Positions 22,934 to 38,209 of a stretch of DNA of 47,315 nucleotides are shown here, piece by piece. Position 1 is the stretch's first letter, and the number at the start of each line of letters is the position of its first letter. Both the position numbers and the translations under genes were made by a program. Origin of the DNA: a virus. Below the pieces are notes generated by a model. The model saw nothing but the letters and a program-made list of their open reading frames with translations, was not told the DNA's origin and made no database searches. The stretch spans positions 14,482 to 61,796 of the IMG/VR virus record IMGVR_UViG_3300033148_001550. The stretch is one strand, 5' to 3'.

Positions 22934-24163
22934 TTATAAAGTTAATAAATCTCTTTTAAAATGTCTTAGGGTATAATCTTTCTTTTTACTAACCGCCTTG
23001 TATATCTCCTTTTCTATACCACCTTTTGAGAATATCCAATAAACATCAGATTCTAACCGGTCTTTTGTTGTCATCCTATCTCTACTCTGCCAATAAGACG
23101 TAGCTGAAAAATCTATGTTATAATACACAAGAGCTTTAGCACTTCTTAAAGATATGCCTTCTCGTCCACTAACTATCTGAAGGGCTATGCTTTTATTGGT
23201 GTTGTTAAATTCGTTAAGATCTGTACATAAGTCATCACCAAATACTTCTTTGAGGGCTTTTAGCTCTTCTTTAAATTTATAAAAGATACCTATCTTTATA
23301 TCAAAAAACTGCTTTCGTATAAACTTAGCTTTACTAGTATCAACCACCATTGATTTACCAGACTCAAACTTTACAGTTCCAGAGCATAATTGGTGTATTT
23401 TTGACATCATCTTTACTGGAGTGTCGGCTAAAACCACCTCAACCGAGCCATCCAGTAGTCTATCTTTTTTTAATTTTTTAATCATGCGTATGGTCTTAGG
23501 GTCTAAATCTACCTCTAATATATGCTCAGTGGTTTTTACTTTGAATCCAGCCTCTTTCTGAGTATACGATATTGTGTGAGGTTTCATTTTGTCAATAATT
23601 GTATCAAGACCATTACTGTAATCGTTTATGTAAAGAGAATTGATTTTTCTTTGCACAACTTTCACATATTGTTTAGAAAACTTATAAAAGTTTACATATT
23701 CCTTGAAAGGATTAGACTTAATAACTGACACCTGGTGATACATTTGCGAATAAGACTCTGGTGTTGGAGTTCCAGACAAAAAAATAACGTAAGGATTGTT
23801 TTCTGATATAAGCGACTTAACCATTTTGGATCTTTTGTTTCGCTTTGGGAAAGCTCCCATCCCATGTGCTTCGTCACAAACAACCATGTCCCATCCAGTT
23901 GATTTTACTTTATGAAGGGACTCGTAGTTTATTACCTCTATATCGTATGATGGGTTTAAAAGCTGGTAGTCGTTCTCAACACTGCTGATAGCTTTTTTCT
24001 TGGTGATAAATAAAAGGTTTTTCACTGGCAGAAGCATACTCACACCCAAGCTCGTAAGCGTCTTGCCAGTTCTAACCTCCATCGCAAGATAAACAAATTT
24101 ATCTTTTTTTAATAAAGGCAGCGCTTTATTTATTATCTCCTTTTGATATGGTCTAAATTCCAT
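22934..24163 (-). CDS. SF2 (SNF2-like) DNA helicase/translocase (409 aa)
   Basis: Helicase motifs in order: Q-like start FRPYQ (3-7), Walker A variant MEVRTGKTLTS (RTGKT at 31-35), Walker B DEAH (97-100), motif III SGTPTP (130-135), motif V region SGREGISL (about 328-336) and motif VI QSRDRMTTKDR (about 356-366). The short, compact form matches phage SNF2-like helicases. It would use ATP to move on duplex DNA or remodel forks. It overlaps the primase-helicase stop by one base (TAATG). The glycine-poor Walker A (EVRTGKT) is shared with other phage members of this group. Confidence 0.85.
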   Translation of the reverse strand: MEFRPYQKEIINKALPLLKKDKFVYLAMEVRTGKTLTSLGVSMLLPVKNLLFITKKKAISSVENDYQLLNPSYDIEVINYESLHKVKSTGWDMVVCDEAHGMGAFPKRNKRSKMVKSLISENNPYVIFLSGTPTPESYSQMYHQVSVIKSNPFKEYVNFYKFSKQYVKVVQRKINSLYINDYSNGLDTIIDKMKPHTISYTQKEAGFKVKTTEHILEVDLDPKTIRMIKKLKKDRLLDGSVEVVLADTPVKMMSKIHQLCSGTVKFESGKSMVVDTSKAKFIRKQFFDIKIGIFYKFKEELKALKEVFGDDLCTDLNEFNNTNKSIALQIVSGREGISLRSAKALVYYNIDFSATSYWQSRDRMTTKDRLESDVYWIFSKGGIEKEIYKAVSKKKDYTLRHFKRDLLTL

Positions 24164-34736: not shown

Positions 34737-34762
34737 TTTAAATACTCTCTTTTGTGTGGTGT

Positions 34763-34855
34763 GAGCTGGTGCGCTGGGGGTATCGTGGGACGGCTTCCCT
34801 CGTCTGAGCGTGAAACGTGGGACGGCTGGAGCTGGTGCAGTTGGACGGCTGGAGC
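34763..34855 (+). repeat. GC-rich direct repeats GGACGGCT and GAGCTGGTGC
   Basis: GGACGGCT occurs at 34788, 34820 and 34843. CGTGGGACGGCT occurs at 34784 and 34816, GGACGGCTGGAGC at 34820 and 34843, and GAGCTGGTGC at 34763 and 34829. No reading frame explains them. Confidence 0.6.
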
Positions 34856-35016
34856 GGTCGCGGTGCGTGAGAAAAAACGCTAAAAAGTTGGAAAAAAATT
34901 TTTTGAAAGTAGGAATTTTTTTTTAAAAAAAATCAGTTTCTGTGGGCGTGGCGCGCGCGTGATATGATATATTACCCTCACCCCCTACATATCTAAACCG
35001 AAAAAATAATTTTCAC

Positions 35017-35048: not shown

Positions 35049-35261
35049 ATGCATTATAAAAACTTAAACCCAAATGATTTTGTAAACGGACTTTATGTAA
35101 AGAACGGTAGACTAATTAACGATAGACCGGATTCAATGACTGGTATTCAAAAAGCGGCTTCTATAAAAAGAGCTGTAAAGAATGACAGACGCATTAATCA
35201 AATTGCAGAAGGTATTCAAGTTGCAGAAAACAAAAAGAAATTTAACGAATTGTATTTTTAA
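35049..35261 (+). CDS. small basic hypothetical protein (70 aa), monocistronic
   Basis: HYKNLNPNDFVNGLYVKNGR then a basic helix (IKRAVKNDRRINQIAEGIQV). It has its own promoter-like box and a strong terminator 23 bases after the stop, so it forms a single-gene unit. Its position opposite the early operon suggests a regulator, but no HTH is clear. Confidence 0.6.
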   Translation: MHYKNLNPNDFVNGLYVKNGRLINDRPDSMTGIQKAASIKRAVKNDRRINQIAEGIQVAENKKKFNELYF

Positions 35262-35283
35262 TATACCTTTATTTTGTTTTGTT

Positions 35284-35315
35284 AAAGAGAGAATCTTAAT
35301 AGGTTCTCTTTTTTT
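35284..35315 (+). terminator. rho-independent terminator after the 70-aa gene
   Basis: AGAGAATC (35288-35295) pairs with GGTTCTCT (35302-35309) around TTAATA. Four more base pairs can extend the base, and six T follow. Confidence 0.85.
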
Positions 35316-35333
35316 ATACCCAATGTATTATAA

Positions 35334-35433
35334 TCGACACTACTATGCTAACTAAAATAAAAATCGACATTTCATAACTAACTGATTTATAACTATTTAT
35401 ATTACTTTTTTTTAATAATGTCGAAAATGTCGA
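35334..35433. repeat. TGTCGA element cluster upstream of groEL, including copy B of the dispersed 14-mer
   Basis: This is part of the 311-base gene-free stretch 35262-35572. TCGACA (reverse TGTCGA) occurs at 35334 and 35364, and TGTCGA at 35419 and 35428. ATGTCGAAAATGTC at 35418-35431 equals 26641-26654. The rest of the gap is very AT-rich with ATATAT runs (35461-35490). Iteron-like, but short. Confidence 0.5.
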
Positions 35434-35509
35434 AAAAATAATAAATTTATACAGCAAAAAAAATATATATAATGTATAAAATATATATGCTGTGTATTGA
35501 TAATTTTTT

Positions 35510-35522
35510 ATGACATCGTCAT
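35510..35522. repeat. small palindrome ATGAC-ATC-GTCAT before groEL
   Basis: Perfect 5-bp arms, 23 bases upstream of the groEL -7 box, where an operator could act. It is unlike the CIRCE heat-shock operator (TTAGCACTC-N9-GAGTGCTAA), which is absent. Confidence 0.4.
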
Positions 35523-35544
35523 ATATTATTTTAAAAATAATTTG

Positions 35545-35552
35545 TATATTTG
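35545..35552 (+). promoter_or_regulatory. Bacteroidetes-type -7 box TATATTTG for the chaperonin operon
   Basis: TATATTTG 20 bases before the groEL ATG (35573). No TTTG at -33. It would start a transcript covering groEL, the 50-aa gene and groES. Confidence 0.5.
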
Positions 35553-35572
35553 TTTAAATTAAATTTATTAAA

Positions 35573-37189
35573 ATGAGCAACTATATCCCTAAAGATTTAT
35601 CTTTCGATGAATCAGCACGAGCAAGATTAATTTCTGGAATCACAAAAATTTCTAAAGCAGTTAAAAGTACGTTAGGCCCACGCGGTAAAACTGTTTTAAT
35701 TGAATCTCCTAATCACACAAACGGAATAACTATTACTAAAGACGGTGTTACTGTAGCTGAGTCAATAGCTTTATTAGATCCGGTAGAGAACTTATCTATA
35801 CAGATGATGAAGGATGCCGCCAGGCGAACCGCAAATGCTGCTGGTGATGGAACAACTACAGCTATTGTATTAACAGAAGCATTAATAAAGGCTGGTGAAG
35901 AACATATAACTTCAGACAATAATGTAACGGAGCTTGTTAGATATATAAAATCTCATATCCCTTTTTTGTTTGAAGCATTAAAAAAGTGTAGTAAACAAAT
36001 AAATGATGACAGACTTAAAGACGTTGCTACTATATCATCTAATAACGATTCGTTTTTGGGAGGTATAATTGCAGACGCTTATAAAAAAGTTGGTCGTAAT
36101 GGTATTGTAACAGTAGAAAATTCTATGAATCATGAAACTTATGCTACTATTACTAACGGAATAAAAGTAGCCAGAGGTTACTCTTCTAATTTATTTATAA
36201 CAAATCAAAAAAACGACGAGTGTATTTTAGAGGATGTTCTTATATTAGTATGTGACCAAGAGATAAGCAACATACTTCAAATAGAGAATGTGCTAAAACC
36301 TATAATACAACAAAACAAAAAACTTCTCATCATTGGTTCTTGCTCTACCAATGTTGTGAATACCCTAGCAGCAAACGTAGTGCGTAACGGACTTAAGCTA
36401 TGTAATATTATACCGCCTAACTTTGGCTATAAACAACACGAGCTTATGCAAGACATTGCGTTGTCTGTTGGGGGAAAGTATTTTTCAGAAAAAACTGGAG
36501 ATGATTTGAGCTTGATAACTATGAGTGACCTTGGTCATGCTGATAAAATTATTGCTGGTAAAAACCAAACAGTAATAATTAAGAGCGATCAAATGACAAG
36601 TGAGATAGAAAAACGAATAGCAGAGCTTAGAGTTCAGCAAGAAAATACAGATATAGTTTCAGATAGAGAGTTTATAAACGAAAGAATAGCAAGCTTGTCT
36701 GGTTCTATAGGCGCTATATATGTAGGAGGTAACTCTGATGTAGAGCAAAAAGAAAAATTTGACCGCGTTGAAGACGCGGTGTGTGCAGTGCGTTCCGCAC
36801 TGGAAGAAGGAATAGTAGCCGGAGCAGGGTTGTCACTTTTCTATGTTTCTGAGTTATTAGGGTCTAATGGAAAGGGTAATAAAGATTTTGAAACAGCTAT
36901 TAAAATTTTAAAGCAAGCATTGAAAATACCGCTACTTCAAATATTAGAGAACGCTGGATTAGATTTTAAAGAATGTTACTCAAAAGCGCTTAACTCAAAG
37001 TCGAAAAAAATCAGTAATTTTAAAGGTTATGATGTTAAGAACGAAAAGTATGGAGATATGTTTAAGATGGGTGTAATCGATCCTTTAAAAGTAACTAAGA
37101 CAGCGCTACAAAACTCCATAAGCGTATCTACTACAATATTAACAACTAACGCAATAGTAACACACGCAAGAGTAGAAGATGGAAAGTAA
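35573..37189 (+). CDS. groEL: phage-encoded GroEL-type chaperonin (538 aa)
   Basis: A full-length group I chaperonin, against about 548 residues in E. coli. The ATP site is intact: TLGPRGKTVLIE (33-44), ITKDGVTVAESI (D57), GDGTTTAIVLTEAL (91-104, D92) and FDRVEDAVCAVRSALEEG (D401, the catalytic Asp equivalent). The apical domain keeps RGYSSNLFIT and EISNI, but the usual PGFGDRRK is PPNFGYKQH. The C-terminus stops at ARVEDGK, without the flexible Gly-Gly-Met tail. It should form a ring that folds phage proteins with ATP and its GroES. It is followed by an overlapping 50-aa gene and then groES, the reverse of the usual bacterial order. The divergent apical residues suggest special substrates. 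Confidence 0.95.
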   Translation: MSNYIPKDLSFDESARARLISGITKISKAVKSTLGPRGKTVLIESPNHTNGITITKDGVTVAESIALLDPVENLSIQMMKDAARRTANAAGDGTTTAIVLTEALIKAGEEHITSDNNVTELVRYIKSHIPFLFEALKKCSKQINDDRLKDVATISSNNDSFLGGIIADAYKKVGRNGIVTVENSMNHETYATITNGIKVARGYSSNLFITNQKNDECILEDVLILVCDQEISNILQIENVLKPIIQQNKKLLIIGSCSTNVVNTLAANVVRNGLKLCNIIPPNFGYKQHELMQDIALSVGGKYFSEKTGDDLSLITMSDLGHADKIIAGKNQTVIIKSDQMTSEIEKRIAELRVQQENTDIVSDREFINERIASLSGSIGAIYVGGNSDVEQKEKFDRVEDAVCAVRSALEEGIVAGAGLSLFYVSELLGSNGKGNKDFETAIKILKQALKIPLLQILENAGLDFKECYSKALNSKSKKISNFKGYDVKNEKYGDMFKMGVIDPLKVTKTALQNSISVSTTILTTNAIVTHARVEDGK

Positions 37190-37331
37190 GATAGAAAAAT
37201 ATGTAAGAACTCATTATCCTAAAATATTTAAGGATAAACCAGTTATTATAATGGAAAACGATGTTGTTTATTTTGTTTCCACACACAAAGACTCTTCTCC
37301 AATAGTTATAAATAAAAAATCAATAGAATGA
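37179..37331 (+). CDS. small protein encoded between groEL and groES (50 aa)
   Basis: MESKIEKYVRTHYPKIFKDK, then PVIIMENDVVYFVSTHKDSS and a polar end. It overlaps the groEL stop by 11 bases and the groES start by 4 (ATGA), so the three genes are translationally coupled. A strand-rich centre (VIIMENDVVYFVS) suggests a tiny beta domain. I know no such gene in chaperonin operons. It may be a chaperonin cofactor or simply a passenger. Confidence 0.68.
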   Translation: MESKIEKYVRTHYPKIFKDKPVIIMENDVVYFVSTHKDSSPIVINKKSIE

Positions 37332-37585
37332 AACCAGTAGGAAAATACATAATTATAAAAACTATTGCTGAAGAAATAAAATCTTCTTCCGGACTTTTAC
37401 TTTCAGCCACAGACGTAGGAGAGTTTAGGTATAAAAAAGGAATAATAGTTAAGCCAGGCACAGATGTTAATGTTGTAGATACAGACGACTTAATATATTA
37501 CGATAAAAATGCAGGGCATTCTATGATTATAAATCAAGAAACGTATACTATTATATCAGAAAGAGATGTTGTAATAGTTTTATAA
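37328..37585 (+). CDS. groES: GroES-type co-chaperonin (85 aa)
   Basis: KPVGKYIIIKTIAEEIKSSS, then GLLLS gives strand 1 and the mobile loop (about 14-26) that docks on GroEL. RYKKGIIVKPGTDVNVVDTD and LIYYDKNAGHSM form the beta-barrel, and IISERDVVIVL is the closing strand (usual cpn10 'i.E.dIla'). It is shorter than bacterial GroES (about 95), with a trimmed roof loop. It would cap the phage GroEL, and perhaps the host one. Coupled to the gene before by ATGA. Confidence 0.9.
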   Translation: MKPVGKYIIIKTIAEEIKSSSGLLLSATDVGEFRYKKGIIVKPGTDVNVVDTDDLIYYDKNAGHSMIINQETYTIISERDVVIVL

Positions 37586-37592
37586 TTTTATT

Positions 37593-37751
37593 ATGTCTAA
37601 AAAAAAGCCAAAAAAAAGAAACAAAAAATACACAGGTTCAGCCAATAAAGAGATTAAAAACAACCCCTCCCCTTTTTTTAATAAGCACGCGGTAGTAGGT
37701 AAGGTGTCTTCTTCTAAAGCATCTCAAATGGGCAGGCGAAGAAAAGTTTAA
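37593..37751 (+). CDS. small Lys/Arg-rich protein (52 aa)
   Basis: MSKKKPKKRNKKYTGSANKE, then NNPSPFFNKHAVVG and a basic end MGRRRKV. It starts 8 bases after groES, so it may be on the same transcript. Its stop overlaps the stop of a leftward gene (37748-37751). It belongs to the group of very basic small proteins in this arm. Confidence 0.62.
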   Translation: MSKKKPKKRNKKYTGSANKEIKNNPSPFFNKHAVVGKVSSSKASQMGRRRKV

Positions 37752-38209
37752 GACTTAATTTCTTTATTAATTTCTTTTATCATGTTTCTGTATACCTTAT
37801 CCATATAACTAGCATCATGCCTAAATAGAGGATTGGTTTGTGAAGATTCGGATATTTCTTCTCCGTTTAATTTTTTGTATATATTATTTATTGCTCTTTT
37901 AGCTTTGTATGTAAGTTCGTATAAAGTTGTTTCAGAGCCTTTTCTTTTTCTCCACACATGAATCCATTCTCTTTTTAATAAACTAGAAAACCTATTAACA
38001 TCCCAAGACATTATTTCTCCATATTCTTTAAACTGACTTTTATTGAATATTTGTTCGCTGTATAAGAAGAAAAGCATATCTAAGTCTGGAGTGCTTAGTT
38101 CGTATTTAGCTTTAGCCCAGTATCTTATGACCCTCCAGTATTTTAAAAAGTCATTATCTGGTGGAGTTCTTGTAGTATTCTTTCGAGGATACACACCTTT
38201 AAATTTCAT
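37748..38209 (-). CDS. putative winged-helix DNA-binding protein (153 aa), lone leftward gene
   Basis: After KFKGVYPRKNTTRTPPDNDF, helices about 22-110 (ELSTPDLDMLFFLYSEQIFN; MSWDVNRFSSLLKREWIHVW; TTLYELTYKAKRAINNIY) have the layout of a MarR-like winged helix: helix, HTH pair, then a basic wing before a Leu/Tyr strand. The C-terminus keeps NPLFRHDASYMDKVYRNMI. It is the only leftward gene in this arm and faces away from the promoter of the basic-protein array, the usual place for a local regulator. The HTH call is by eye. Confidence 0.55.
   Translation of the reverse strand: MKFKGVYPRKNTTRTPPDNDFLKYWRVIRYWAKAKYELSTPDLDMLFFLYSEQIFNKSQFKEYGEIMSWDVNRFSSLLKREWIHVWRKRKGSETTLYELTYKAKRAINNIYKKLNGEEISESSQTNPLFRHDASYMDKVYRNMIKEINKEIKS

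Follow-up and report, generated by a model that had tools for sequence, protein, structure and literature searches.

The locus described here, in which a small gene lies between the groEL and groES genes of a virus, raises the question of whether that gene is a working part of the phage chaperonin or a passenger at its site. The window, i.e., the whole stretch of 47,315 nucleotides that was analysed, is contained in a 61.8-kb virus record, and its source is a marine virus of bacteria. Marks of a tailed phage were PHROG matches to virion proteins and Pfam matches to Sak-type annealing and primase-like proteins. No tRNA was found in the window, and Rfam returned 0 matches between 34000 and 39000. 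A preliminary description had read the segment as a groEL/groES operon of a phage in which an unrecognised 50-aa gene separates the two members; this anatomy was upheld, but the accompanying idea of the 50-aa gene as a functional part of the chaperonin was not.

The chaperonin genes and the frame between them

The groEL gene (35573..37189, + strand) encodes a group I chaperonin large subunit of 538 aa, which matched the full-length Cpn60 profile of Pfam (PF00118, Cpn60_TCP1; 3.5e-61 over residues 26-530) and phrog_5725 (1.3e-134), and for which the closest solved sequence was an ancestral Fibrobacteres-Chlorobi-Bacteroidetes chaperonin (4e-114). The ATP-site aspartates named in the preliminary description (D57, D92, and D401) are present and align with D52, D87, and D398 of GroEL; together with the GDGTTT motif they are invariant in 79/79 aligned phage sequences. 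The R197-E386 ion pair is represented in the alignment by R201 and D389, a conservative change, and the inter-ring contact positions 105, 109, 434, 452, 461, 463, and 464 vary within the family, which does not decide ring number. The missing GGM tail and the PPNFGYKQH in place of PGFGDRRK, previously suggested as a possible cause of a shifted substrate range, are both real; the 79-sequence alignment placed them family-wide, and since such traits are ordinary in the family, the absent tail and the PPxFGYK motif are uninformative on this phage in particular. In the apical binding groove, L234 aligned against an invariant glutamate and V263/V264 against alanines; because these groove positions differ, substrate or lid binding of the phage GroEL may be tuned.

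The groES gene (37328..37585, + strand) encodes a co-chaperonin of 85 aa that matched Pfam PF00166 (Cpn10; 5.8e-11), and its model (pLDDT 87.5) matched solved Cpn10s at probability 1.00. The mobile loop with its hydrophobic GroEL-binding tripeptide is retained as the motif SGLLLS, in which, across 51 aligned sequences, G22 is invariant and L24 and L25 reach at least 90% conservation. The roof beta-hairpin is gone, with a deletion of 8-9 residues at the roof loop relative to Thermus Cpn10 and, in the model, a strandless stretch from residue 44 to residue 54; this hairpin is not needed for Cpn10 membership, and gp31 of phage T4 is also without one.

The middle frame (37179..37331, + strand) was annotated as a 50-aa orphan gene in a variable groEL-groES junction; its codon usage is gene-like, and no relatives of it were found. 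The three frames lie as previously described, the 50-aa frame overlapping groEL by 11 bases and groES by 4 bases. These overlaps permit translational passage; a fixed ratio of the three products, as had been proposed, does not follow from overlap alone. The codon-usage score of the 50-aa frame was 0.192 bits/codon compared with 0.174 for groEL, and an AlphaFold2 single-sequence model gave an alpha-beta-beta-beta arrangement with a pLDDT of 84.6. Because its codon usage is gene-like, the gap is filled exactly, and the model is confident, the frame was taken as a gene, and it is very likely a real one. In favour of spacer DNA left open by chance is that no homologue was found; against it stand codon usage as in known genes, at a score reached by only 1/66 spurious frames of like length, the exact closing of the gap with overlap on both ends, and the confidence of a model built from a single sequence, and this explanation is considered very improbable.

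Relatives of the 50-aa product were sought at several levels. Nothing significant was obtained with tblastn in phages and plasmids, or with peptide-pattern scans of IMG/VR and a genome set of 84,980 species. A profile search, recommended in the preliminary description, yielded no significant match in Pfam, PHROGs (best E-value 0.06), or PADLOC. Fold searches with the model gave nothing below E = 0.05, with LexA beta-hairpin fragments at the top of the PDB list (E = 0.18), and comparison with the profiles of the other gene families found at this junction gave no score above 0.5 bits and no convincing match. As far as these searches reach, the 50-aa protein is an orphan confined to its lineage. 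In one weak profile hit, its KDKPVIIMENDVV resembled the end of GroES, ETYTIIQERDVV, as might be seen in a decayed partial groES duplicate with a C-terminal hairpin like the GroES end. Such an origin was rejected by shuffling (p = 0.25 for the window GroES, 0.12 for the best-scoring family member, and 0.36 at the DNA level), and we regard it as extremely improbable.

Upstream region and conserved neighbours

The segment delimited in the preliminary description begins at 35545 on a promoter-like element, TATATTTG (35545..35552, + strand), which is of the Bacteroidota -7 type (TAnnTTTG) and precedes the start codon of groEL by 28 bases. In 76/79 relatives, an element of this type is located 24-41 bases ahead of groEL, compared with 6% expected from shuffling, and because it is so placed in nearly all of them, a single promoter upstream of groEL is likely.

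The same intergenic region (35262-35572) contains four of the seven copies of TGTCGA in the 47-kb window, and these copies cluster around a conserved core, TAACTAACTGATTTATAACT. In relatives the layout is that of the window, and the repeated word differs by lineage (TGGAAT, TGTCAC, AATGAC, GATGTC, ACGTCG, and TGACGA, among others). Clustering of hexamers above shuffles (p<=0.05) was found at 44/65 loci, compared with 1/79 coding controls. The array resembles an operator or a set of iterons that would co-evolve with a putative DNA-binding protein. It is a side finding of this work, and possibly the more interesting one.

Two neighbours are conserved. A 153-aa gene (37748..38209, - strand; phrog_17028, 8e-12), winged-helix-like by eye, was found in 80 related loci and is convergent to groES in almost every relative. 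It was considered as a reader of the hexamer array, but the helix likely to serve in recognition barely changes while the repeat words do, and on that ground this protein is probably not the reader. A 70-aa gene (35049..35261, + strand), found in 70 related loci, typically lies about 330 bases before groEL in relatives. Also observed was an intergenic G+C-rich island at about 34750-34890, with up to 63% G+C amid 15-40% and containing a 23-base tandem repeat.

Variability of the groEL-groES junction

The survey sample consisted of 81 related groEL loci, nearly all of them viral contigs, of which 80 were obtained from a scan of IMG/VR (GroEL 59-76% identical) and one was a GenBank podovirus; near-identical contigs recovered with other genes end short of groEL. 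The 85-aa groES is downstream of groEL on the same strand in every one of the 81 loci where the contig reaches that far. The preliminary description had stated that absence of the 50-aa frame from related phages keeping both chaperonin genes would speak against its proposal, and the neighbourhood survey that it suggested found the 50-aa gene in 0/81 related groEL loci. A maximum-likelihood GroEL tree (a quick tree with a single support measure) placed the window in a clade of 19 with a support of 100, and in the 18 other members of this clade the junction is empty and 2-68 bases long. The most parsimonious reading is a gain of the 50-aa gene in the lineage of the window.

Across the sample, the junction measured less than 75 bases in 46/81 loci and at least 75 bases in 35/81. 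All of the longer junctions occurred where GroEL was below 70% identical (35/62), compared with 0/19 above 70%. Over the GroEL tree, at least 12 switches of the slot between the occupied and the empty state were counted, and at least 19 switches of its content. As a control, tight junctions of the replication module were measured in comparably distant phages, where lengths of at least 75 bases were found in 12/33, 1/21, 0/21, 0/32, and 0/18 cases, at a depth of comparison that is matched only roughly because the control and groEL-groES sets share contigs only in part. Most tight junctions thus vary less than the one between groEL and groES. The value of 12/33 belongs to the junction of the SNF2-type helicase and primase-like genes (window position 24163; loci L122-L175; p = 0.085 versus groEL-groES), and since this junction is similarly variable, the groEL-groES site does not stand alone. 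Between the helicase and primase genes there is perhaps another insertion site.

The 35 longer junctions are occupied by small genes of at least eight kinds without detectable similarity to one another, and profiles of eight of these kinds gave no mutual matches. Recurrent families are A (MKKRKLNSKNPK.., 'SKNPK'), B (..NEIF..), C (MIEF..LG), D, E, and I, and several occupants are singletons. Occupant E is DUF3310-like (sub-threshold in Pfam, with significant PHROG matches), is also present close to the primase in dozens of relatives, and in the genomes L019 and L021 has 89% identical copies at a large distance from groEL. Relatives of occupant B are present elsewhere in the L041 and L035 genomes, those of D and G also lie outside the slot, and the occupant in L078 is a DUF1599 nucleotide-modification-associated protein. 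Because the occupants vary and several are found elsewhere, the junction is a variable site at which itinerant small genes of phages insert. By sequence, the other occupants look like ordinary mobile small phage genes tolerated at the site, unlike chaperonin parts, although their itinerant habit does not prove the same for the 50-aa gene. Families A and C, though mostly viewed with 3-kb flanks, were seen only in the slot, and for that reason some occupants may be chaperonin-linked.

These observations bear directly on the role of the 50-aa protein. A dedicated third chaperonin component, i.e., a cofactor or adaptor that is produced alongside GroEL and GroES and tunes the choice of substrate, would be in keeping with the tight overlaps on both sides, the compact predicted fold, and the confinement of families A and C to the slot. 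The frame is absent, however, from all related loci that keep both genes, the 18 other clade members included, as well as from 50 related whole records (0/50, in a search without a positive control) and from the phage, plasmid, and genome collections, and the other occupants differ, with several of them mobile. Since relatives carry nothing or different small genes at this position, the 50-aa gene is probably no dedicated part of the machine; a role as third component is improbable, and the cofactor, adaptor, and host-GroEL-blocker roles put forward in the preliminary description were not supported. A further reading, in which the junction is a dedicated cargo slot and its occupants, including the 50-aa protein, act as lineage-specific modulators, either of the phage chaperonin or of GroEL in the host, is given only a slim chance; were it true, such modulators would be exchanged as hosts or substrates change.

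The explanation that we favour, and hold to be probable, is that of an ordinary Bacteroidota-phage chaperonin pair at whose junction small genes are exchanged, with the 50-aa gene as the present occupant and likely with a job of its own. The phage GroEL and GroES would assist the folding of abundant or large phage proteins, and one promoter upstream of groEL would drive the pair. Small phage genes would repeatedly have been gained, lost, and exchanged at the junction, where the 50-aa gene would be the occupant in the lineage of the window, presumably co-transcribed with the chaperonin genes and with translation able to pass from gene to gene. Its product would most likely serve as a small accessory protein in the infected cell, with no chaperonin job. 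A specific form of this explanation, rather than an exclusive alternative to it, is that the protein acts on the host in takeover or anti-defence (blocking of host GroEL included) and takes advantage of the groEL operon solely to be expressed at the right time. Being small and lineage-specific, the 50-aa protein resembles many early accessory proteins of phages, and the slot is common to different small genes; the protein nevertheless has no PADLOC match and no significant fold match, and this form is regarded as possible but doubtful.

The finding is mostly an ordinary one: chaperonin pairs have been described in phages before, and the third gene is an insert specific to one lineage. A conserved two-gene machine in which the junction occupant has been swapped at least a dozen times nevertheless offers a natural comparison for separating parts from passengers.

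Comparison with known phage chaperonins

The preliminary description had singled out the reversed gene order and the presence of both chaperonin genes. Both features are present, but they are the rule in this phage group and are also seen in cultivated elemoviruses. The virioplankton chaperonin study of Marine et al. (ISME J 2017) reportedly found divergent viral GroELs to be common in the sea and the order of the subunit genes to track GroEL phylogeny, and is said to cover the reversed order already.

The closest annotated record is Podoviridae sp. ctfjg026 (MW202828, Manatee Spring), with a 60.9-kb genome and a GroEL 57% identical to that of the window. Its groES is likewise directly downstream of groEL, but starts 4 bases after it, with an empty junction. 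The elemovirus Flavobacterium phage vB_FspP_elemoC_15-9A (MT497098), also of about 60 kb, has groEL followed by groES, both on one strand and overlapping by 1 base with no gene between, and its GroEL is strongly divergent (36.9% identical to the window GroEL over 98%). Immutoviruses differ in having the order groES-groEL. The callevirus Cellulophaga phage Calle_2 (MT732433) is alike by position, with a small gene between both chaperonin genes, but in the opposite order, groES-90 aa-groEL (90-aa gene at L084 2223-2495); because of this arrangement, a junction gene is not restricted to the group of the window.

Phages EL, OBP, and AR9 also encode GroEL relatives, and their chaperonins were reported to work without a co-chaperonin (PMC9598537), whereas the window encodes a GroES; the AR9 chaperonin is only about 25% identical to the window GroEL. 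Possession of GroEL together with GroES is stated for some phages, whereas those encoding GroEL without GroES are few (PMC7185714). The T4 protein gp31 is without the GroES roof loops, which results in a wider opening that is thought to aid folding of the large capsid protein (PMC6318259), and the roof hairpin is likewise absent from the window GroES. The two differ in that gp31 uses host GroEL, is larger (12 kDa), and has a longer mobile loop, whereas the window GroES is 85 aa and has its own phage GroEL alongside. By analogy, a gp31-like folding role may be suggested for the window GroES, and the loss of the roof hairpin throughout this family, whose phages also bring their own GroEL, constitutes a testable parallel to T4 gp31.
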